Source: a virus
Length of the DNA: 29,888 bases
Reading direction: 5' to 3' (one strand)
Virus record (IMG/VR): IMGVR_UViG_3300049617_000433
Coordinates: 1-29,888 of that record
Shown: piece by piece, positions 8,903 through 27,900 of the stretch
Layout of the letters: every line of letters begins with the position of its first letter
Numbering within the stretch: position 1 is the stretch's first letter
Program-made: the position numbers and the translations under genes
Notes under the pieces: generated by a model
Told to the model about the DNA's origin: nothing
Database searches by the model: none
Seen by the model: the letters and a program-made list of their open reading frames with translations, nothing else

Positions 8903-10456
8903 ATGCCGGTTTTCGCCCAGGGTAGTATTAACACCACGGCGCTGATTGTGCCGGATCTATACGTACAGATTGTTTCGCCCCAGACGCTATTGCTGAACGG
9001 CGTGCCGACCGACACGCTCGGCGTGGTCGGCTCCGCGACGTGGGGGCCAGTTGGAGAACCGACAATCTGCGGCAGCATGGGAGACTATGCCGCGGCCTTC
9101 GGGCCGGTGATGCCGCGCAAATACGATATGGGGACGCAGGTGGCGACCGCGGTCCAACAGGGGGCGGCGAATTTTCGCTGCGTCCGGGTAACCGACGGCA
9201 CGGACACCGCAGCCGCGCTCTCGGTGTTTGGCGCGATCACATTCACGGCGCTGCATACCGGAACGCTTGGCAATCAATTGACACTGACATTTTCCGCCGG
9301 ATCGGCGGCGAATTCGTGGCGCGTCACGATCGCGCTGCCAGGCATCAATCCCGAAGTTTTCGATAACATTCTCGGCAGCGGCGCGGTATTCTGGGCGAAT
9401 CTTGCCAATGCCGTGAACTCCGGTAATGGGGTCCTGCGCGGGCCCTCCCAACTGGTTGCCGCCACCAACCTGTCCACCACCGCGAACCCGGTGGTGGGGG
9501 TGTTTCCATTCAGCGCCGGCACGCCCGGCAGTGACGGTGCCGCCGGGCTGAACGCGGCGGCGCTTGTGGGGTCAGACAGTTTGCCGCGGCAGGGGATGTA
9601 CGCGCTGCGTGGTCAGGGTTGCGCGATGGCGCTGCTGGCTGACGCGGATGACGCCAGCCATTGGAGCGCGCAGGTGGCGTTCGGCCTTTCCGAGAGCGTC
9701 TACATGATCTGCACCGGGCCGGCAGGTGACAATATCACCAATGCAGTCGCAACCAAAGCCGGCGCCGGCATCGACAGCTACGCCGCGAAACTGATGTTCG
9801 GCGACTGGATTTACTGGTACGATCAGGCAAATGCTTTGACGCGGCTGGTCTCACCGCAGGGGTTCGTGGCAGGCCGGCTGGCGAATCTGTCGCCCGAGCA
9901 GTCATCTCTGAACAAACCGCTCTATGGCGTGATCGGAAGCCAGAAATCCGGCCAACCCGGTGTCGGCACTGCCACCACTTACGCGACCGCGGATCTGTCC
10001 GCGCTGCTCTCCGCCGGCATCGATGTGATCGCAAACCCGCAGCCGGGCGGCGCCTATTGGGGTGTGCGCGGCGGCTTCAATACCTCGTCCAACGCTGCAA
10101 TTAACGGTGATAACTATACCAGGCTGACCAACTACATCGCCGCGACCCTCTCCAGCGGAATGGGAATTTATGTCGGCCAATTGGTCAATGCGACGTTGTT
10201 CCAGAACATCCGCGCCACGCTGTTGGCGTTTTTGAATGGGTTGCTGGGGCAAGGGCTGCTCGGCAGTACGGATGGGTCGCTGCCCTTCGCGGTGGTCTGT
10301 GACATCACCAACAATCCGGTTTCGCGCACCAGCCTGGGCTATGTGCAGGCTGACGTGCAGGTGCAGTACCAGGCGATCAACGAGAAATTCATCGTCAACG
10401 TTCAGGGCGGCCAGACCGTACAGGTCAGCGTGCAGTCCGTCGCGGCGAGCAGTTAG
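8903..10456 (+). CDS. Tail sheath protein
   Basis: A 517-residue contractile sheath subunit, which surrounds the tail tube and shortens to drive it through the cell envelope. Signs: the start FAQGSINTTALIVPDLYVQI, a GVVGSATWGPVGEPTICGSM stretch typical of sheath N-termini, an inserted domain (about residues 110-200), and a conserved C-terminal region with NYIAATLSSGMGIYVGQLVN, FLNGLLGQGLLG and LGYVQADVQVQYQAINEKFI. The last block is the classic C-terminal arm that links neighbouring subunits. AAAGGGAGA lies upstream of the ATG. The sheath fixes the particle as a myovirus type and the tube gene follows 15 bases later. Confidence 0.93.
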   Translation: MPVFAQGSINTTALIVPDLYVQIVSPQTLLLNGVPTDTLGVVGSATWGPVGEPTICGSMGDYAAAFGPVMPRKYDMGTQVATAVQQGAANFRCVRVTDGTDTAAALSVFGAITFTALHTGTLGNQLTLTFSAGSAANSWRVTIALPGINPEVFDNILGSGAVFWANLANAVNSGNGVLRGPSQLVAATNLSTTANPVVGVFPFSAGTPGSDGAAGLNAAALVGSDSLPRQGMYALRGQGCAMALLADADDASHWSAQVAFGLSESVYMICTGPAGDNITNAVATKAGAGIDSYAAKLMFGDWIYWYDQANALTRLVSPQGFVAGRLANLSPEQSSLNKPLYGVIGSQKSGQPGVGTATTYATADLSALLSAGIDVIANPQPGGAYWGVRGGFNTSSNAAINGDNYTRLTNYIAATLSSGMGIYVGQLVNATLFQNIRATLLAFLNGLLGQGLLGSTDGSLPFAVVCDITNNPVSRTSLGYVQADVQVQYQAINEKFIVNVQGGQTVQVSVQSVAASS

Positions 10457-10471
10457 CGGAGGATAACCGAA

Positions 10472-10900
10472 ATGCCTTACAATACGTTTTCCATCGGCAG
10501 CGACTGCCAACTTGTCGTGATGGGGCCGTTCGGGCGGGTCGACCTTGCCCATGTCACCGGGTTTGAGGCGAACCAGGTGACAATGGCAATCCGCGTCGAC
10601 CGGCTGGACGGTGTGCAACTGGGGGCGGAGCTGCCGAAAGGGTGGTCGGGCAATTTTACCCTGGATCGCGGCTCGCCGATGGCTGATGATTTTATTGCGG
10701 CGATCGAGCAGGCCTATCTGGCCGGGCAGTCAATCCCGGCGGGAACGCTGTACCAGTACGTGAATGAACCGGATGGCTCGACCTCGACCTATCAGTTCAG
10801 CGGCGTGGTGTTCAAACTCACCTCCGCGGGCGTGTATCGCGGGGATGCGCCGGTGGCGCAGCGGTTGGAATTTTATGCGTCCAGCCGGGCCAGCATTTAA
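10472..10900 (+). CDS. Tail tube protein
   Basis: A 142-residue protein immediately after the sheath gene with a strong GGAGG site. It begins PYNTFSIGSDCQLVVMGPFG and has GFEANQVTMAIRVDRLDGVQ, a pattern of long beta strands with an intervening loop, then WSGNFTLDRGSP and YQFSGVVFKLTSAGVYRGDA. Size, all-beta character and order (sheath, tube, chaperone) fit the inner tube of contractile tails, a stack of hexameric rings through which DNA passes. The TAA overlaps the next ATG (TAATG at 10898-10902), coupling it to the assembly chaperone gene. Confidence 0.87.
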   Translation: MPYNTFSIGSDCQLVVMGPFGRVDLAHVTGFEANQVTMAIRVDRLDGVQLGAELPKGWSGNFTLDRGSPMADDFIAAIEQAYLAGQSIPAGTLYQYVNEPDGSTSTYQFSGVVFKLTSAGVYRGDAPVAQRLEFYASSRASI

Positions 10901-11202
10901 TGTCGAGGGTCATTACGGACCGAGCCGGCCGGCGGTTGGCACTGCGCAAGATCGGCGTGCTCGAAACGCTGCGCCTGTATAAGGCGTTGGGCGCCGTATT
11001 GTCCGGCAATGCGGCCTATGTTGATCTGGCCGAGCTTGCCGCATCGGTTTCTATGATTGATGACGTGCCGCTGCCGTTTCCGGTGAATGAGGCCGGCGTT
11101 GAGTCGCTGGTCGAAAGGTTGGGCGACGATGGCATCGCGGCGGTCGCGGCGGCCGATGACCGGCCGGCGTTTGAGCAGGTGGTGGCAGACGCGGGAAACT
11201 GA
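10900..11202 (+). CDS. Tail assembly chaperone, short (G-type) product
   Basis: A 100-residue helical protein (ITDRAGRRLALRKIGVLETL, then YKALGAVLSGNAAYVDLAEL) ending ADAGN before TGA at 11200. It lies between tube and tape-measure genes, where nearly all long-tailed phages carry a two-product chaperone that coats the tape measure during tail assembly. The zero-frame product corresponds to lambda gpG or P2 gpE. It ends exactly on a canonical slippery heptamer, and a longer product is expected from -1 frameshifting (next entries). Its start overlaps the tube stop by one base. Confidence 0.85.
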   Translation: MSRVITDRAGRRLALRKIGVLETLRLYKALGAVLSGNAAYVDLAELAASVSMIDDVPLPFPVNEAGVESLVERLGDDGIAAVAAADDRPAFEQVVADAGN

Positions 11203-11254
11203 CACGGCACCCGGCACTCGTGGATTGCCTGTATCTGGTCCGGTGCGGGGTGCC
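11193..11254 (+). promoter_or_regulatory. Programmed -1 ribosomal frameshift signal
   Basis: GGGAAAC at 11193-11199 lies in the phase G GGA AAC, the X XXY YYZ arrangement for -1 slippage, and is followed directly by TGA (11200-11202). Six bases after the heptamer starts a hairpin: GGCACCC (11206-11212) pairs with GGGTGCC (11248-11254). After one G/G mismatch the stem continues with GCAC (11214-11217) pairing GTGC (11243-11246). A -1 slip enters an open frame of 56 codons. All elements are seen directly; efficiency is unknown. Confidence 0.9.
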
Positions 11255-11369
11255 CTATGATGTTGTATTTGGTCTGGATGACGTAGACCGCGCAGCCTAT
11301 ATCGTGATTCTTGGAACGTTGGACGGGCTCAAATTCGATTGGCGGCGGTTGAGCTGGCAAGAGGTTTGA
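11199..11369 (+). CDS. Tail assembly chaperone, -1 frame extension (T-type part of the fusion)
   Basis: After slippage the ribosome reads CTG from 11199 and adds 56 residues, starting LTRHPALVDCLYLVRCGVPY and ending DWRRLSWQEV at TGA 11367-11369, giving a fusion of about 156 residues. There is no ATG at its start; it is expressed only as the second half of the chaperone. The extension has Cys, Tyr and Trp patterns like those of P2 gpE+E' and lambda gpGT extensions: a short hydrophobic helix, then DDVDRAAYIVILGTLDGL and a tryptophan-rich end. The T-type part is known to contact the tape measure or tube subunits. It is missed by ordinary gene callers because it has no own start codon. Confidence 0.85.
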   Translation: MTRHPALVDCLYLVRCGVPYDVVFGLDDVDRAAYIVILGTLDGLKFDWRRLSWQEV

Positions 11370-11447
11370 AATCCATTGCCAATCACACGCAAGGGTTGTA
11401 TTCTGTTAACCCTCCGACGCTATCTTGGGTGTCCGGGAGTTTGCAAC

Positions 11448-11729
11448 ATGGGTTTCGGCGTATGGAGGAGGATCGTAGCGCGGTTAACGCTTGCCGCGAT
11501 CGCGGTTCATGGCGGTGCCGGGACCGCTCAGGCATCGGCAGATGATTTTGCGTTCAATAGTTGTTTGCAGACATCGATATCAGAACTCGATGTATTAGAG
11601 GGACAGGTTTGGCATACAAGAGGGCCTGATCCAAAAATCCAACGAATTGAATCGGGGCGCTTCTACAAAGCTGAAATTGCTCGTTGGGTAGATCGTAAAA
11701 ACCCGAACGGAACCATAACCACTATATAA
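11448..11729 (+). CDS. Secreted small protein, probably the N-terminal fragment of a broken cargo gene
   Basis: A 93-residue frame from the ATG at 11448 (GGGAG 9 bases upstream; a TTG at 11376 is also in frame). Residues 1-30 form a clear Sec signal peptide: basic GVWRRIVARL, hydrophobic TLAAIAVHGGAG, then AQASA with cleavage likely before DD. The mature part (SCLQTSISELDVLEGQVWHT, then KIQRIESGRFYKAEIARWVD) looks like a small folded periplasmic or secreted domain. It ends GTITTI at TAA 11727-11729, apparently too early (see the next entry). It lies between the chaperone and the tape-measure-position gene, is AT-richer than its surroundings and has no known structural role, which suggests a foreign insertion. 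I do not recognise the family. Confidence 0.5.
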   Translation: MGFGVWRRIVARLTLAAIAVHGGAGTAQASADDFAFNSCLQTSISELDVLEGQVWHTRGPDPKIQRIESGRFYKAEIARWVDRKNPNGTITTI

Positions 11730-11898
11730 TGGCCAGAATCGATCTGCCGCAGAATGAAGATGATACCGATATTTTTAGCGTCTATCTTTCTCGAACAATT
11801 CTAATGAGGGTGTTTCGGGATTGTTCTGGTGTCAGTGGAATAGCATATATAATGAATGGATCTGGTTCGAAAAGGACTGGGTTTTGATCACGCAGTGA
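11730..11898 (+). pseudogene. Frameshifted continuation of the secreted-protein gene
   Basis: Reading past the TAA in other frames gives plausible protein. First MARIDLPQNEDDTDIFSVYL (ATG at 11729, overlapping the stop as TAATG), then in a third frame SNNSNEGVSGLFWCQWNS and NEWIWFEKDWVLITQ, ending at TGA 11896-11898. Joined, this reads as one beta-rich C-terminal half. Each frame change could be explained by a 2-bp expansion in a dinucleotide run: TATATA before ATGG at 11723-11730, and TCTC at 11789-11792. Alternatively the 52-codon frame 11729-11887 is a small coupled gene. I favour the pseudogene because the third-frame segment, rich in Trp, looks more like protein than the frame it replaces. 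Confidence 0.5.
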
Positions 11899-11908
11899 CA
11901 GGATTTTG

Positions 11909-13366
11909 ATGAGCAATACGCCATTTCCGAGCCAGCATTTTGCAGCCTTTGCCGCTGCGGTTCGCGCGAGTGAACCCGGCGACGATTACACCAGCCATCC
12001 ATTGGACGTTCAAGCAGGAAAAGGGATAAATCGCTTTTTTGGTGCTTATCAAATGAGCTATGTTGCTCTGGCGGATGCCGGTTTCATAGAAAAGAGCACT
12101 GATCTCACGAGTCCGACATGGACGCCATTCGCAAGATCCCTCGGTATAAATTCAATGGATGCTTTTCTCGCCAGTCAGAAGGCGCAGGATATTGCGTTCC
12201 AGCGGAATGCCGAGGCCAACGATCATTATCTCCGCAACTATAAAGCCCATATCGGTAAGCTGATCACCAGCAAGGTCACAGGCATTCCGGTTTATGTCAC
12301 GCAATCCGGTTTACTGGCTGCGGCGCATTTGCGCGGATATCCGGCGGTCGAGGAATTTCTGTCGTCAAACGGTGCGATTGATCGGGAAGATGGATATGAC
12401 GTCCATGTCTCCGAATATGCGGCAGGTTTTGCTGGTCACGGCTTCACGTTCGACCATTCCGGATCCCTTGTCGATACGCCGGACACGCCGGCGGTGCTGA
12501 CCGCGCCGGGTATAACGGCTGCGGCGCGGTTCGAGGCGCGGCGGGATGCGGAGCAGAAAGCAATCAAGCGTGAACAATCCGGCGGCGGCAAAACCCGGCA
12601 GACGGCCCCGTTGGCACCGGTCCGGCACCAGCCAGGCGCCAAAAAAAGCTTGCAAGCCGCGCTGCGATCCGGTGGTGTTGGCGCGGCGGAGCGCCCGGCA
12701 CATCGCGTCGGGGGAGCAAGCTCCGGCCAAATTTTTGCATCCCTTATGCGGGAAGTCCGCCTGGCGGCGCGGCGTTTAAATCGTGCCATGGCTATAACCC
12801 GCAAGGTCCTGGAGGTAAGAGCTACCGGGCGGCCGGATGATCGGCGGATCGCGAAGACGAGCGCTTTATCCAGGGGAAGACTCGCTGCCTTGCGCGCCGG
12901 GACGTTGCCGCTGCGGCGCTTCGTGTCTGCGTCAAGCTTGCGACCGACGTGGAAATCATTCGATCAGCGAGCTCCGCTGCGGACCGTCGCCGGGTCCGGT
13001 TGGAAAAGGGCTTCAAGGGGGCAGCCAGCAGACTCGCTGGCTTTCGCTCGCCCGCCGGGGGACGCCATCCATTCGGCACGTGCAGACAAAGCGGCGTTGC
13101 CGAGTTTTGCGCCACCCGGCCTCGCCTTGAGGCTCGGGACCAATCCCGCGGGTCAAGTTGCACCACGTGTGGCTGATGCCAATTCCATAGTCAGCCAAGC
13201 GTCCACAAAGCCGAAGGTTGCAGCGTATGGCACGGTCGACCAACGGCAACTCGGCCGGGCGCTGGCGGAACTGTTGGACCAGCAGGGGCGGCTGCCACCA
13301 TCCGGCGCCACCGGATTTGATACGCGGCTGACGCCGGCCTGGGCGGGACAAAAACTGCCCGCCTAG
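11909..13366 (+). CDS. Lysozyme-like tail protein in the tape-measure position
   Basis: A 485-residue protein (ATG at 11909 with AGGA 5 bases upstream). Residues 8-180 look like a muralytic domain of the lysozyme/transglycosylase superfamily: FAAAVRASEPGDDY with Glu 22 as candidate catalytic residue, FFGAYQMSYVALADAGF (43-59), and TQSGLLAAAHLRGYPAVEEF (131-150). From about 200 the chain becomes very basic and low in complexity (many Arg, Ala, Ser, Pro) and closes with LLDQQGRLPPSGATGFDTRL. There are no long heptad coiled coils and no clear membrane segment, both common in tape measures. By order (chaperone, then this, then baseplate) it should be the tape measure, perhaps a short one that carries the wall-degrading domain. 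Confidence 0.62.
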   Translation: MSNTPFPSQHFAAFAAAVRASEPGDDYTSHPLDVQAGKGINRFFGAYQMSYVALADAGFIEKSTDLTSPTWTPFARSLGINSMDAFLASQKAQDIAFQRNAEANDHYLRNYKAHIGKLITSKVTGIPVYVTQSGLLAAAHLRGYPAVEEFLSSNGAIDREDGYDVHVSEYAAGFAGHGFTFDHSGSLVDTPDTPAVLTAPGITAAARFEARRDAEQKAIKREQSGGGKTRQTAPLAPVRHQPGAKKSLQAALRSGGVGAAERPAHRVGGASSGQIFASLMREVRLAARRLNRAMAITRKVLEVRATGRPDDRRIAKTSALSRGRLAALRAGTLPLRRFVSASSLRPTWKSFDQRAPLRTVAGSGWKRASRGQPADSLAFARPPGDAIHSARADKAALPSFAPPGLALRLGTNPAGQVAPRVADANSIVSQASTKPKVAAYGTVDQRQLGRALAELLDQQGRLPPSGATGFDTRLTPAWAGQKLPA

Positions 13367-13443: not shown

Positions 13444-14565
13444 ATGATGACGCCAGGACTCGTTCTCGGCCAAGTCTACAACGTTAGGGCCTATGGGGCG
13501 TTTGGCAATGGCCTGACCGATGATACCGCGGCCTTCACGGCCGCATTCGCCGCCGCGGGAGCAAATGTGGGGGTGGTCTACGTGCCTGATGGTCACTACG
13601 TAATATCCGGCCCGCTGGCTTCCAACGCGCCCCTGTCCTTGATCGGCGAAAGCGCGAATGCAATCCTGATTCGGACGAATTTCACCGGTGTTTTGGTCAA
13701 CCTCGCCGGTCCCGGAAGCTATGTCCACGGGCTGACCATTAACGGCAACGGGCTAAACATCGCCAGTATTTTCGCAGAGGTGGAAATATCCGGTACGAAC
13801 AGTGTGATCGATACAGTGCAGGTGGTGGCGACGCTCCACATCGGCATCGCCGTCGCGGGTGACCATTGCGAGGTCCGCGGCTGCAACGTCACAGGCTTGG
13901 GAACCGCGCCGGTTCTACAGCAGGGTTACGGTATTTGGGCGTGCGCCGACAACACCGGCATTGTGGTCGCGGACAACACGGTCAGCGGCACCGGCATTGA
14001 CGGAATCGGCATCAGCGGGATCGGCTTCCGGGTCACCGGCAACAACGTGTCCAACTGCCATTGCTTCACCGGCGAAGGCGGTGGCCAGATTGTTGTCTAC
14101 AACGATGGTGGCGTCACACGTGACGGTCTGGTGGAAAGCAATGTCGTTGGGCGGGGAAACGCGCCCGTCGCCGGCGGCTTGGAGCTGAACGGAACCGATA
14201 TTTCGGTGATCGCGAATGTGGTCTCCAACCAGCAATATTTTGGGATGGTTGTCGATTCCGGCAATGGCTGGAATTTCAGCGGCAACACAGTGAGGAACAG
14301 CGGCCAGGCCGTGCCGGGCAGCCAGTATGCCTGGCAATGCGCCGCGCTGGCGCTACCGGCGGGATCAACCGGCTTTTCGGTCACCGGCAACCGCTTCGTG
14401 GACGACCAGACGACGCCGACACAGACCTGCGGCGTCTATATTTGGCCAGGTGCATCAGACCAGTATCTGATCACCGGTAATATGGTCATTGGCAACACGC
14501 TGATGGCAATTGCCGATTACGGCACCGGCTACAACAAGCTCATTACAAATAACCTGGGCGCGTAG
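13444..14565 (+). CDS. Right-handed beta-helix protein, pectate-lyase superfamily (tailspike-like)
   Basis: A 373-residue protein (or 372 from the second ATG at 13447; GGAGG at 13434-13438). Residues 13-35, with NVRAYGAFGNG and LTDDTAAF, are the signature start of pectate-lyase-superfamily beta-helices. The body is a run of 20-25-residue coils with repeated G-N-N/V-x-G patterns (VADNTVSGTGIDGIGISGIG, FRVTGNNVSNC, WNFSGNTVRNSG, FSVTGNRFVDD, YLITGNMVIGNT). These fold as the shaft of phage depolymerases that cut polysaccharide. It has no obvious N-terminal attachment module or chaperone domain, and it lies inside the tail-core genes rather than with the other fibers. Catalytic residues cannot be picked from sequence alone. 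Confidence 0.82.
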   Translation: MMTPGLVLGQVYNVRAYGAFGNGLTDDTAAFTAAFAAAGANVGVVYVPDGHYVISGPLASNAPLSLIGESANAILIRTNFTGVLVNLAGPGSYVHGLTINGNGLNIASIFAEVEISGTNSVIDTVQVVATLHIGIAVAGDHCEVRGCNVTGLGTAPVLQQGYGIWACADNTGIVVADNTVSGTGIDGIGISGIGFRVTGNNVSNCHCFTGEGGGQIVVYNDGGVTRDGLVESNVVGRGNAPVAGGLELNGTDISVIANVVSNQQYFGMVVDSGNGWNFSGNTVRNSGQAVPGSQYAWQCAALALPAGSTGFSVTGNRFVDDQTTPTQTCGVYIWPGASDQYLITGNMVIGNTLMAIADYGTGYNKLITNNLGA

Positions 14566-14589: not shown

Positions 14590-15282
14590 ATGACGAATGT
14601 GGTTCTTACCCTGGGCACGGTCGCTTTTCAGAACTTTGAGGTGCCAGAGAAAATCGTTTTCGGCGGCACGCAACGTCTCGCCGTTCAGCCGTTAATCGGC
14701 GGCGGCCGGGTTGTGAATGTGCTCGGCTATGACGATGGTGCGATCAGTTTTGCCGGGATTTTTGCCGGTAGTGAGGCGGCGCAACGAGCCCAGACGTTAG
14801 ACGTCGCGCGCGCCGCTGGCGCGGTCCTGCCGCTGATCTGGGACCAGTTCTACTACAACGTCATCATTGCCTCGTTCGCGGCTGACTATCAAAAACCGTG
14901 GTGGATTCCTTTCGCGCTCAGTTGCGTCGTTACTCGCGATCCAGTGACTGAAAGTGAAATCACCCCCGCGTCTTATCTAATCGGCGACGACCTCGCGGTA
15001 GTGACAGCACTGCTTGGACAGGCCGGCATCCCGCTTGCCGGATTGAGCAACCCAACGGCCTCTGGTCTCGCCGTAGCGCAAGGTATGATTGCGGGTGCCA
15101 TCGTCAGCGCAGGAACGACGCTGAACGGCAGTGCAAATGCGGTGGCAAACGCCGCCGACGCGACAACCGGGATTGCGGCGGTCAACCAGTTGGCCGCGAC
15201 ATCTGGCGCGCTGGCGGCGGCGGCGGCCATGAGCGGCTATGTCAACCGTGCCGCCACGAATTTGGTGGGGCAGTTGTCATGA
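14590..15282 (+). CDS. Baseplate/hub protein, gpN or XkdP-type
   Basis: A 230-residue protein. The N-terminal 125 residues match the pattern of tail proteins that link tape measure to hub: NFEVPEKIVFGGTQRLAVQP, GGGRVVNVLGYDDGAISFAG, GSEAAQRAQTLDVARA, and LIWDQFYYNVIIASFAADYQ. The C-terminus is a low-complexity Ala/Gly/Asn helix (ALAAAAAMSGYVNRAATNLV). GGAG stands upstream of the ATG. In Mu- and PBSX-type phages this gene precedes the LysM-like X protein and the gpD hub, and the order here is the same. Its TGA overlaps the next ATG (ATGA at 15279). Confidence 0.72.
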   Translation: MTNVVLTLGTVAFQNFEVPEKIVFGGTQRLAVQPLIGGGRVVNVLGYDDGAISFAGIFAGSEAAQRAQTLDVARAAGAVLPLIWDQFYYNVIIASFAADYQKPWWIPFALSCVVTRDPVTESEITPASYLIGDDLAVVTALLGQAGIPLAGLSNPTASGLAVAQGMIAGAIVSAGTTLNGSANAVANAADATTGIAAVNQLAATSGALAAAAAMSGYVNRAATNLVGQLS

Positions 15283-23586: not shown

Positions 23587-25746
23587 ATGACAACCATTGC
23601 CCAACTGCCGCCGGTAGCCACCGTCGGAAGCGGTGACCTGCTGCCGCTCAGCCAGGCGGGCTTGCTGTATTCGGTCACCGTCGCTCAGCTCAACGCCACC
23701 TTGCAGCCGCTGATCATCGTGCCGACTGGCGATCTTCTGGGCCGGATGAGCGCCGGCGCGGGCGGCCCGGAAGCGATCACCGTTGGCGCCGGTCTTGCGA
23801 TGACCGCCGGCAATCTGTTTGCCAACGGCGCGGATCACGCCGGCTTTCCGGTCCAGGCCAGTTTCTCGCTGACGGACGAGCTGGTGATCAACGCGGCGAA
23901 CGCTCCCGGATTACTGCCGGTGGCGTCCCTGCGCGCCTTATTCAGTGCCGGGTCCGGTGTGTCGATTGACGGCAACGGCGTGATCACGGTGACGGCGTCA
24001 TCCATTGCCGGTCCCGCCGGGCCGCAAGGCCCCGCCGGTCCCATCGGCGGGATCGGGCCGGCGGGTCCAACCGGCGCCACCGGTTCCGGCCTAACGGCGC
24101 CAGAAGCGGGCAATTCGGCCAGTTCCATCGGTGCCTCGGATTATGTCGCGATCTGGCAGAACGGCGCCAATGCCTGGATGCCCTACGGGCAGTTTCTCGG
24201 CGGCCAGACCATCGACCAGTTGCCGGCCGCAGGTCCCGCTGCGGATAGTGACGAACTGCTGGTGGCCCAGGGCAGCAGCTCGCTCAGCGTGCAGGGCTTT
24301 GGCGCCATCTGGACTTATCTTCAGGACAAGCTGCCGCTGTATCAGCCGGCGGTGGTGGAACTGGCGACCAATACGGTGCTGGACGCGACCAGCCATAACG
24401 GCCGCATCCTGGTGGTCAGTTCGCCGCTCACCCTGACCGCGAATTTCGCCAATACCGGCGCGGGTTTCTCCTGCACCCTGATCAATCTTGCGGCAGGCTC
24501 GGTAACCATGGGCACCGGCATTTCGTCGGGCTCCGGCAGCACCGTGCTGCCGCCAGGCGCTTCCGCGAACCTCTTTGGCCTGGCCTATTCCGGCGGCTCT
24601 TTGGTGTGGTGGAGCGGCATCGTCCAGAACGCGCCGACGCTGACCGTGGCGACGATCACGCCGCCGGCCCCAGGTGCCGCGTTCGCCGTCAGCGGCGGCA
24701 TTTTTAACGACGCGCCGATTGCGCTCGACTATTCCACCAATGGCGGCACCACCTGGACGCCAGCCACCACCCCGGTGATCTCAGCCAATGCGTTCAGCTT
24801 CACTGTTCCGGGTCTCGTCGCGGGGACCTACACGGTCCGGGTTCGCGATCACGGCAACATCGCGGTCATCGGCATCTCCAACAGTTTCACCATCATACCG
24901 CCCAGCATCAGCCTCAACGCGGTGCCGGCGATATCCACCGTCGACACCGCCATCGCGCTGTCCGGCGCGGTGTCCCCGGGCAATGCGGCGGTGCGTGTCG
25001 GCTTGTCCAGCAGCGCAACCAGCGCGCCCACCGTCTGGCAGAGTGCCACCGTCAGCAATGGCGCTTGGACCGGAAGTCTCACTCCAACGGCGGCGGGCAC
25101 GGTTTATGTCTGGGCACAGCAGAGTGCTGCCATCAGTGTGGAGACGATTTCCAGCGCCATCAGCATCGTCACCGCCAGCCTCGCGGTCTCCGCGCCGCCG
25201 ACCGGAACCGCCGCGGCGGCCTTGACCGTCACCGGTACGGTCAGCCCGGCGGCGGACGCCGTCAACGTCCAACTATCGAGCCAGAACGCGACGGCGCCAA
25301 CCGCGGGCTGGACCGCCGCGACCAACAATGCCGGCAGCTTCACAGGGTCGCTCACGCCATCCGCCGCCGGGACCTATTATGCCTGGGCGCAAGATCCCAG
25401 CACCGGCCTGACCGCGGTTTCCGGCGCGATTACGGTGTCCGCCGGAGCCTCGGTCACTTACAGCTTCAACAATCCCGGTGGCACCTATGCGCATGGCGTT
25501 GGGACGATCGAACTGACCGGCGGCATCTCGCCCGCCAACGCCGCGCCGTTGCAGGTGGCGCTCGCAACCTCCAACGCGGCGCCCCCGACCAGCGGCTGGT
25601 CCACCAATGTCGCGGTTCTGCAGAGTAACACGTTTTGGGGGGCATATTGCCCGGCGCCGGCGACAGCGGGCGCCTACTACGTCTGGATCGAGACGACCTC
25701 GGGCGGCGATCCGACCGTGAGCAGCTTCACCGTCACCGTCACCTGA
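23587..25746 (+). CDS. Tail fiber with attachment modules, collagen-like stalk and Ig-like repeats
   Basis: A 719-residue fiber. The start TIAQLPPVATVGSGDLLPLS is a copy of the attachment module of the preceding tailspike; related copies follow at about 88-120, 180-205 and 207-240 (TIDQLPAAGPAADSDELLVA). Residues 142-166 hold eight Gly-X-Y triplets (GPAGPQGPAGPIGGIGPAGP), a short collagen-like triple helix that fixes a trimer. After a beta domain (250-345), about four domains of roughly 90 residues follow with shared patterns such as VSPGNAAVRVGLSSSATSAP and GTYYAWAQDPSTG, consistent with bacterial Ig-like folds. It ends at 25746 with TVSSFTVTVT. Likely a long adhesive fiber; no enzyme motif is seen. 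Confidence 0.82.
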   Translation: MTTIAQLPPVATVGSGDLLPLSQAGLLYSVTVAQLNATLQPLIIVPTGDLLGRMSAGAGGPEAITVGAGLAMTAGNLFANGADHAGFPVQASFSLTDELVINAANAPGLLPVASLRALFSAGSGVSIDGNGVITVTASSIAGPAGPQGPAGPIGGIGPAGPTGATGSGLTAPEAGNSASSIGASDYVAIWQNGANAWMPYGQFLGGQTIDQLPAAGPAADSDELLVAQGSSSLSVQGFGAIWTYLQDKLPLYQPAVVELATNTVLDATSHNGRILVVSSPLTLTANFANTGAGFSCTLINLAAGSVTMGTGISSGSGSTVLPPGASANLFGLAYSGGSLVWWSGIVQNAPTLTVATITPPAPGAAFAVSGGIFNDAPIALDYSTNGGTTWTPATTPVISANAFSFTVPGLVAGTYTVRVRDHGNIAVIGISNSFTIIPPSISLNAVPAISTVDTAIALSGAVSPGNAAVRVGLSSSATSAPTVWQSATVSNGAWTGSLTPTAAGTVYVWAQQSAAISVETISSAISIVTASLAVSAPPTGTAAAALTVTGTVSPAADAVNVQLSSQNATAPTAGWTAATNNAGSFTGSLTPSAAGTYYAWAQDPSTGLTAVSGAITVSAGASVTYSFNNPGGTYAHGVGTIELTGGISPANAAPLQVALATSNAAPPTSGWSTNVAVLQSNTFWGAYCPAPATAGAYYVWIETTSGGDPTVSSFTVTVT

Positions 25747-25758
25747 ACACGCTTTACG

Positions 25759-27900
25759 ATGACCCTGTTATACATCACGCCCGGCGGACCGCTGCTGACC
25801 GGTCCGTATTCTCGCGCGCTGATTGCGGCGCTACCGGCGGGCAGCACGCCGCCTTCGGGCGTTTTCAGTGGACCATACCCGTCCGCGATCGCCGGCCTTT
25901 CCGGCTGGTGGGACGCCGGCTTGCTCAGCGGTTTGCTGGACATTAACGGTGCGCCACTTACCGTTAGCAATGCCGTGGTAGGATTGTTGGCCGACAAGTC
26001 GGGCAACAATCTGCCGCTGACGCCGTATCACATCGCTGTCGATACCACCCCGGCGGCGACGCTGGCGACGCCGCGGGTCAACGGCTTTCTAGGCGCGGTC
26101 GGCGCGCCGGATCCCGCCATCGTAAATTACGGCCCCAGCTTGGACCCGGATTGGGGCCTGTCCCATCCTGGTTTTGACCTTGGCGCCGCCGCCGCTTGGA
26201 CGGTTTATCTGGTCTGGACCCGGCCGAACTGGCGCCAGGGCACGTATTATGTGAATAACAGCCCGATACCGCTGCTGCACACCACCGCGTCCGGCACCAC
26301 CATCCTGCAGGCCGACAGTGAAGGAGGCGGCAACCTGACGCTGTTTCCCGGCATCGCCAGCCAGACCGTGTTGACCAGCACCCTGGCGCGCCGGCACACC
26401 CACGCAATTATTCTGCGCAACACGCCGGGAGCGGGCGTTGATGCCTGGATGGACGGCGTGCCGGTCGCAACGCATGTTACGAACCCGCTGCCGGCCGCCG
26501 CCAATGCCCAGGTGTTGCTGCTTCATGACGGCACCATCCAGGGCTCGGCCCAATGTTGGTTTCATGAGGCGGCAACTTGGCAACATGCCTTGGCCACGGC
26601 TGACATCACCACGTTGATCGCCTGCCAGGCGCGTTGGGTGCTGGGCGCCCGCAAGGGCGTCAATCTGCTGGTCATGGGCCAGTCGAACGCCGCCTGGTTC
26701 ATTAATGCCGGCGGCCCCCTCGCTTTGGCGCAGGGTGTTGCCTGGTACCTGGGCGCCGCGTCTTACGCGTTCACCGCGGTGATCGCCGGAGGCACCCTTT
26801 CTCCGCCGCGCTATTCGGTGATCTCCGGCCATCCGATCTCCAATTCCTCGCCGCCTCTATTTCCGCCGGGCGCCGGCGATGGCACGTTTCTGACCAATCC
26901 GGGGGACGGTTCGGACCCATCCAGTTGGGCCGGCGGACCGGATTTCACCGCGCTGACCGACATGCTGACCGGCAGCACCGCCTTGGTTCCGGCATTCGAT
27001 GAAACCGACTTAGCGTTTCTGATCTGGCCCTGGTCCGAGCAGGACAGCACCATGCCTTACGCCAACAAATCGCTCTACGCGGGCAGCGTGTTGCGCCTGC
27101 TCGCGTTGACCCGGGGTCTGCTTGGCCGCGCCCCGGCTGCGTTGCCGTTGCTGGCCTGGAACGCGATCCCGTATCAGACCAATGACGGCGTGCAGATGGT
27201 ACGAGAGTCGATCGCGGATCTTGCCGCCGTGACGGCGAACAACATCGTTGTCTTCGTGGCGCAGACGGCCGATTCAAATCCACTGAACGCCGCTTACGAT
27301 CCCGCCACCGGCGTTTTTTCCGGCGGCGACCCCGAGCATCGCGACCAGCCGGACCTGCTGCGCTATGGCCGTATCGGCGCGCACGCCGCCGCCCGCGCCG
27401 CTTTCGCCATGGGGCTCGCGGATACGATCGCCGCGACCGCCTTGCCGGCCAACGGCCTGCCAATCAAGGGTGGGCCGCAGATCTCCCATGTCTACCGCCA
27501 ATCAAACACCGAAATCATCCTCACCATCGTCCATGATTCCGGCAACGATCTGATCGTACCGCTACAGGCGGCGAACGGTGCCGGCTTGGCGGTGATGGAT
27601 GGCGGCAGCGTCGCGGCACCCGGCAATATCATCACGGCCACCGCCGCGGCACGCATTGATTCCACGCATGTTGCGGTATCCCTTGCGGCCGCCATCACCA
27701 ATCCCTCCGCCAGCGTGCTGTTCTTTTATCCGTATGGTAGCACGCAGATCGGGCGCGGTGACGCTGTTACCGATAACGCATCCCTGCTGCCTCCGCCAGT
27801 GAACTGGAATATTGGCAACGATCTCGGCGCCGCCTGGAGTCTGAACCTGCCGCTGCAGGCGACTTTCTATCCGATCACCCTCTCCGACACGCCTGTCTGA
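25759..27900 (+). CDS. Tailspike with LamG-like and SGNH-hydrolase (esterase) domains
   Basis: A 713-residue protein. Residues 35-295 resemble a concanavalin/LamG jelly-roll seen in viral surface proteins (LSGWWDAGLLSGLLDINGAP, NGFLGAVGAPDPAIVNYGPS, RRHTHAIILRNTPGAGVDAW, FHEAATWQHALATADITTLI). Residues 300-555 match the SGNH/sialate O-acetylesterase fold: GQSN at 307-310 with nucleophile Ser 309, WPWSEQDS around Glu 427, and D524-x-x-H527 in DPEHRDQPDLLRYG, the usual Asp/His pair near the end. The C-terminal 150 residues form another beta domain. All three catalytic elements are present, so activity is likely, probably removing O-acetyl groups from surface polysaccharide. The start lacks a strong ribosome site. 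Confidence 0.83.
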   Translation: MTLLYITPGGPLLTGPYSRALIAALPAGSTPPSGVFSGPYPSAIAGLSGWWDAGLLSGLLDINGAPLTVSNAVVGLLADKSGNNLPLTPYHIAVDTTPAATLATPRVNGFLGAVGAPDPAIVNYGPSLDPDWGLSHPGFDLGAAAAWTVYLVWTRPNWRQGTYYVNNSPIPLLHTTASGTTILQADSEGGGNLTLFPGIASQTVLTSTLARRHTHAIILRNTPGAGVDAWMDGVPVATHVTNPLPAAANAQVLLLHDGTIQGSAQCWFHEAATWQHALATADITTLIACQARWVLGARKGVNLLVMGQSNAAWFINAGGPLALAQGVAWYLGAASYAFTAVIAGGTLSPPRYSVISGHPISNSSPPLFPPGAGDGTFLTNPGDGSDPSSWAGGPDFTALTDMLTGSTALVPAFDETDLAFLIWPWSEQDSTMPYANKSLYAGSVLRLLALTRGLLGRAPAALPLLAWNAIPYQTNDGVQMVRESIADLAAVTANNIVVFVAQTADSNPLNAAYDPATGVFSGGDPEHRDQPDLLRYGRIGAHAAARAAFAMGLADTIAATALPANGLPIKGGPQISHVYRQSNTEIILTIVHDSGNDLIVPLQAANGAGLAVMDGGSVAAPGNIITATAAARIDSTHVAVSLAAAITNPSASVLFFYPYGSTQIGRGDAVTDNASLLPPPVNWNIGNDLGAAWSLNLPLQATFYPITLSDTPV

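Follow-up and report, generated by a model that had tools for sequence, protein, structure and literature searches.

A contractile-tailed phage of Acetobacteraceae with predicted programmed −1 ribosomal frameshifting in its tail assembly chaperone

Frameshifting in the tail chaperones of phages is well established and hundreds of such cassettes are known. They include those of contractile-tail phages such as P2 (E/E') and Mu (gp41/FS-gp41), as well as the G/G-T pair of the flexible-tailed phage lambda. The lambda layout, which is used here for comparison, involves a −1 frameshift at GGGAAAG, the product of which binds the tape measure through its G part and the tube protein through its T part (PMC5009743). 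Haloarchaeal viruses also have g-t frameshifts, which occur at GGGAAAC in HCTV-1 and at AAAAAAC in HCTV-2 (PMC5009743). How closely does the locus described here follow these precedents, and what kind of client does its chaperone serve? From the comparison of related sequences the locus very probably specifies a programmed −1 ribosomal frameshift within the gene for the tail assembly chaperone of an Acetobacteraceae phage with a contractile tail. As such it represents a further case of the lambda G/GT and P2 E/E' type, not a new mechanism, and its novelty in this respect is modest.

The locus lies in a window of 29,888 nucleotides, the whole stretch of viral DNA that was analysed and a viral record of IMG/VR, and its features are the following.

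8903..10456, plus strand: tail sheath gene of a contractile tail (phrog_23, E 8e-45)
10472..10900, plus strand: tail tube gene, whose end overlaps the start of the chaperone gene (from position, phrog_12993 and tblastn to phage phiKX1)
10900..11202, plus strand: frame-0 chaperone gene, G-like, 100 aa (phrog_20383, E 6e-15; phrog_508 in relatives)
11193..11199, plus strand: slippery heptamer G GGA AAC, in slip phase in the frame of ORF 10900-11202 (GGGAAAC or AAAAAAC in relatives)
11200..11202, plus strand: frame-0 stop TGA, the next codon after the heptamer
11200..11205, plus strand: spacer of 6 nt, the heptamer-to-stem distance, invariant in length in relatives
11199..11369, plus strand: T-like extension in the −1 frame, of 56 codons and a stop
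11206..11254, plus strand: predicted stimulatory hairpin, made up of a 7-bp lower stem, in which 11206-11212 pairs to 11248-11254, and an upper part
11906..13366, plus strand: tape-measure-slot gene, 486 aa, with a possibly lysozyme-like N-terminus and a conserved C-terminal motif at about residues 443-482
14590..15282, plus strand: baseplate/tube-initiator-like gene that follows the slot (phrog_21362, E 1e-36)

The order of the operon is sheath, tube and chaperone, with baseplate genes further downstream. By tblastn the tube gene matches the gene directly 3' of the sheath gene in Komagataeibacter phage phiKX1 (LC644975), the nearest isolated relative, the two tube proteins being 37% identical. 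The family matched by the 100-aa product, phrog_20383, is one of unknown function, and 9 of 58 members of the chaperone family match phrog_508 (tail assembly chaperone), with a best E of 1.6e-4. Neither a TAC family nor any other Pfam family is matched by the chaperone, a tblastn search of phages with the G protein gave no match at E 0.01, and searches of PDB sequences with the G and T profiles returned nothing meaningful. The top Foldseek match in the PDB for an AlphaFold2 model of G (pLDDT 91) is the HK97 TAC (2ob9), with a low probability of 0.44. Together with B. subtilis YqbN (3klu) it provides the best structural match to the model (Z 4.7 and 4.9, respectively), yet with identities of only 13% and 6% these matches are weak and may reflect a shared small fold only. 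Among viral models the Foldseek matches include the Gemini TAC and Mu FS-gp41, the predicted fold of G appearing similar to that of the latter (prob 0.82). A preliminary description, made from the sequence of the window, had taken the gene for the tail chaperone of an alphaproteobacterial contractile-tail phage. This identification is supported through the position after the tube gene, the phrog_508 matches and the weak HK97 TAC fold match, through the phrog_23 sheath gene in the operon, and through the hosts of the relatives (Acidocella, Acidisphaera and Rhodopila).

The likeness to lambda G/G-T lies in a short chaperone gene that comes next to the tube gene on its 3' side, an in-phase heptamer near its end and a −1 extension; the tape-measure position downstream is occupied in the window by a 486-aa gene with only a tape-measure-like C-terminal motif. 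Unlike lambda, the window phage has a contractile tail, has AAC in place of AAG as the second slip codon, places a stop directly after the heptamer and a strong, invariant hairpin downstream of it, and encodes proteins that do not clearly resemble lambda G or T in sequence. Sequence similarity of the window chaperone to its counterparts in P2 and Mu is likewise not detectable, and the P2 slip heptamer differs from that of the window. The same two heptamers as in the window family are found in HCTV-1 and HCTV-2, which, in contrast, are archaeal siphoviruses. The layout recurs in phiKX1, which shares the TGA stop, the 6-nt spacer and the GGCACCCC/GGGGTGCC stem and uses the heptamer AAAAAAC. Unlike the window, it carries a conventional 742-aa tape measure (phrog_28) behind the cassette. 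Particles from a phiKX1 lysogen have been seen by electron microscopy to bear a 99-nm contractile tail (PMC8566455).

The 100-codon plus-strand ORF at 10900-11202 ends gcG GGA AAC TGA, so that the exact slip phase and adjacent stop noted in the preliminary description are as stated (11193-11199 and 11200-11202, respectively). GGGAAAC is frequent in the window, with 9 copies against 3.7 expected, which means that the heptamer alone is no evidence and that inspecting the sequence alone would leave the matter unsettled. The other plus-strand copies that were checked, at 14154, 21380 and 22010, are all three in slip phase inside tail-spike-like genes, where they are probably Gly-Asn codons.

The weight of the frameshift case rests on conservation. 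Relatives were gathered by scans of viral contigs, host genomes and MAGs with the 100-aa protein and its alignment, and gave 116 distinct loci from Acetobacteraceae prophages and metagenomic phages, the genomes concerned being those of Acidocella, Acidisphaera, Rhodopila and Limobrevibacterium and Acetobacteraceae or Rhodospirillales MAGs. The in-phase heptamer is kept in 114 of the 116, as GGGAAAC in 100 and AAAAAAC in 14, the two exceptions being L110, which has GGGAAAT, and L062, which is without a recognisable heptamer; this conservation reaches relatives at about 30% protein identity. The X triplet of the heptamer is thereby swapped as a block, GGG or AAA, an exchange that is predicted by the tandem-slippage model. 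The frame-0 stop that follows is TGA, TAA or TAG, and is located 0, 1 or 6 codons 3' of the heptamer.

The −1 frame starts at CTG 11199 and runs to a TGA at 11367-11369, confirming the 56 open codons first described. Its product begins LTRHPALVDCLYLV and ends RLSWQEV (whole translation LTRHPALVDCLYLVRCGVPYDVVFGLDDVDRAAYIVILGTLDGLKFDWRRLSWQEV), and the predicted fusion has 156 aa with the joint ADAGN-LTRHPALV. The frame is open in 114 of 114 relatives, and the two remaining frames are open in 20 and 24 of the 114, respectively. With a pN/pS of 0.195 (21 pairs), next to 0.174 for the first gene, the −1 frame is, on the evidence of these alignments, under purifying selection.

The hairpin has a predicted energy of −28.2 kcal/mol in the window (z −2.2 versus dinucleotide shuffles), and among synonymous recodings of the −1 frame only 7 in 1000 fold as well as the native sequence. 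An ungapped alignment of 107 distinct sequences places the beginning of the stem 6 nt after the heptamer in all 107, the spacer of six bases already given in the preliminary description. Standard pairs fill 97.5% of the cells in a 9-bp stem across this alignment, pairing falls to 33-54% when the stem partner is shifted by 1-3 columns, and the mean stem probability across relatives is 0.99 (RNAfold); the window stem has a G.G mismatch at its eighth pair. Codons of the −1 frame that lie in the stem are frozen, such that Val20 is GTG in 114 of 114 relatives and Gly19 is GGG in 111 of 114; for Gly and Val outside the stem, in the same frame, all four codons are in use. The two-part hairpin (7 + 4 bp) originally drawn is conserved in its lower stem of 7-9 bp but not in its upper 4 bp. 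The covariation that had been suggested as a check is similarly partial, in that the stem is highly paired but compensatory support comes from one pair only, a change of C-G to G-C in L076 and L079 (L077 is of the same type), covariation being limited to this one pair in one small group because the stem is nearly invariant. Both the −1 frame and the hairpin, whose loss in close relatives had been named as evidence against frameshifting, are retained in close and distant relatives.

A pattern scan of IMG/VR for GGGAAACTRANNNGGCACC, a gap of 30-48 nt and GGTGCC matched at least 119 contigs. The gap between the stem arms is exactly 37 nt in all 117 copies read among the matches listed, and all 117 belong to this G/T chaperone family; a single gap length within one gene family marks the hairpin as a rigid, family-specific element. 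No Rfam family is matched by this RNA element.

Could the same anatomy exist without a slipping ribosome? A chance meeting of heptamer and hairpin over a frame broken by ordinary mutation might seem plausible from the nine copies of GGGAAAC in the window, but this is refuted by the conservation of the site in 114 of 116 relatives, as far as about 30% protein identity, and by the selection on both frames. It is also improbable that, without any frameshift, the second frame constitutes an independent small gene read by re-initiation from a GTG or TTG. The second half was initially thought to be invisible to gene callers, which is not always so, as the phiKX1 annotation gives it as a small ORF of its own that starts at an ATG, and a GTG is present at −1 codon 20 in all relatives, a universality that is explained by the position of this codon in the stem. 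Yet no start codon for the −1 frame is conserved among the 114 relatives and none is fixed upstream of the LSRHPxLxD block; 106 of the 114 are without an ATG in the first 30 codons. Moreover, the heptamer is conserved, phase included, at a position 5' of any start, and the conserved protein begins right at the slip site.

Transcriptional slippage on an A or G run as the source of the fusion is less probable still. While the 14 relatives with A6 at the site would suit such a process, the run in the window and in 100 relatives is no more than GGGAAA, which is shorter than known slippage needs, and the frozen stem and fixed hairpin spacing suggest that it is the ribosome that responds to the element.

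Programmed −1 ribosomal frameshifting, the preferred reading, can be set out as follows. On reaching G GGA AAC, ribosomes translating 10900-11202 would find the hairpin at the side where the mRNA enters. The majority would read AAC and use the adjacent stop, giving the 100-aa G-like chaperone, and a minority would slip backward by one base, take CUG next and add 56 residues to generate the GT-like fusion. By analogy with lambda, G would coat the tape-measure protein and the T part would recruit tube subunits. It is from the sequence anatomy and the selection acting upon it, both directly observed in the alignments, that we infer the slippage, the ratio of the products and their binding partners. 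What is it about AAC that might suit it as a slip codon here? The slipperiness of AAG has been discussed, for E. coli, alongside a single tRNA-Lys that serves AAA and AAG (PMC5009743). In both Acidocella hosts where tRNA-Lys was found a tRNA-Lys(CUU) is present, which fits AAC and not the E. coli-type AAG; AAC as slip codon in Acetobacteraceae phages is thus a reasonable proposal. The cassette brings to this field a set of more than 100 distinct sequences from Acetobacteraceae phages that fix its rules, namely the 6-nt spacer, the frozen stem, the two heptamers and AAC in place of AAG.

The slot behind the cassette, measured from the −1 stop to the baseplate gene, is less conventional. Across the relatives it spans 0.7-3.7 kb (5.3 kb in one) and holds a protein of 244-512 aa, or it is empty. 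Many slot proteins have DAYTIGIxLALxxGVS at the start and GDVYLDGxxLGRWM...FDPRLxPxWPG at the end and are Pro/Ala-rich in between; proteins of this type were found at about 75 loci, none of them exceeding 511 aa. The slot proteins do not have the character of a conventional long helical tape measure, being 244-512 aa in length with Pro/Ala- or Arg-rich middles, and a 19-residue hydrophobic stretch reaches 1.6 in only 1 of 16 tested. The ends of the short slot proteins align weakly to both ends of the phiKX1 tape measure (P 0.0095 and 0.11). In the window, the product of 11906-13366 matches a C-terminal profile of short tape-measure-like proteins (hhalign E 4e-10), and its N-terminus matches phrog_27932 (E 3e-4) and is possibly lysozyme-like; the model of this N-terminus, with a pLDDT of 69, is too poor to confirm a lysozyme fold. 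Tagged slot proteins in which the C-terminal tag is kept and the N-terminal parts are interchangeable or disordered were observed in the window and in L004, L009, L012, L078, L080, L137 and L057.

At least three changes, two of them forced, are needed to explain the empty slots across a tree of 88 loci. About 20 relatives, in which the −1 frame runs straight into the baseplate gene and the motif is missing from the flanking sequence, could suggest that the tape-measure gene has been lost. Relocation replaces this reading, since in seven slot-empty host genomes (L018, L027, L031, L036, L033, L053 and L016) whole-genome searches place the tagged gene 15.8-16.0 kb further 3' than the chaperone. 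At those of the loci whose surroundings were read, it adjoins a RecX-like gene and rplT, as named from the translations, and looks to be at the right end of the prophage. In one lineage, then, the slot gene is relocated while the frameshift cassette stays in place. For the subclade of L106, L110 and L129 no tagged gene was found in the single long-enough record, which is possibly incomplete.

The slot protein probably represents either a tape measure in reduced form or a cargo that derives from one. In actinobacterial injection systems tape-measure-related effectors with interchangeable domains have been described (PMC13277306), to which the slot protein bears a resemblance only, and the open-access literature gave no clear precedent for contractile phages without a tape measure. 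It is possible, although we put it forward tentatively and at somewhat under even chances, that the tape measure has been reduced to a short tagged protein, the body of which is largely disordered or interchangeable, moved by about 16 kb in one lineage, while G/GT is still fully selected, which would imply either a non-helical or very short ruler or a chaperone serving a tail cargo. Herein lies the stronger interest of the system, as a natural experiment in which the frameshift is retained while its supposed client has been shrunken, rebuilt or moved. With Acidocella lysogens it becomes possible to ask whether GT requires a conventional tape measure, and the unusual tape-measure neighbour merits a study of its own.

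Several further features are found around the cassette. A secreted-protein gene persists at 11376-11890 only as remnants disrupted by frame changes, while complete homologues occupy the same slot in L004, L006 and L012, duplicated in the latter two; the neighbouring contig L002 has a one-base difference at 11371. In L028, L038, L057, L128 and L146 the chaperone is separated from the slot protein by a tail-completion/Neck1-like gene (phrog_5), for which this is an unusual location. A pectate-lyase-like gene (PF12708) is inserted at 13444-14565, where it separates the slot gene from the baseplate gene; of the loci compared, the window and contig L003, which is nearly identical to it, are the only ones seen to carry this gene. 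Finally, the large gene at 23587-25746 is tail-fibre-like and includes a collagen-like GPAGPQGPAGPIGG segment, and beside it the gene at 25759-27900 reads like an esterase-bearing fibre.
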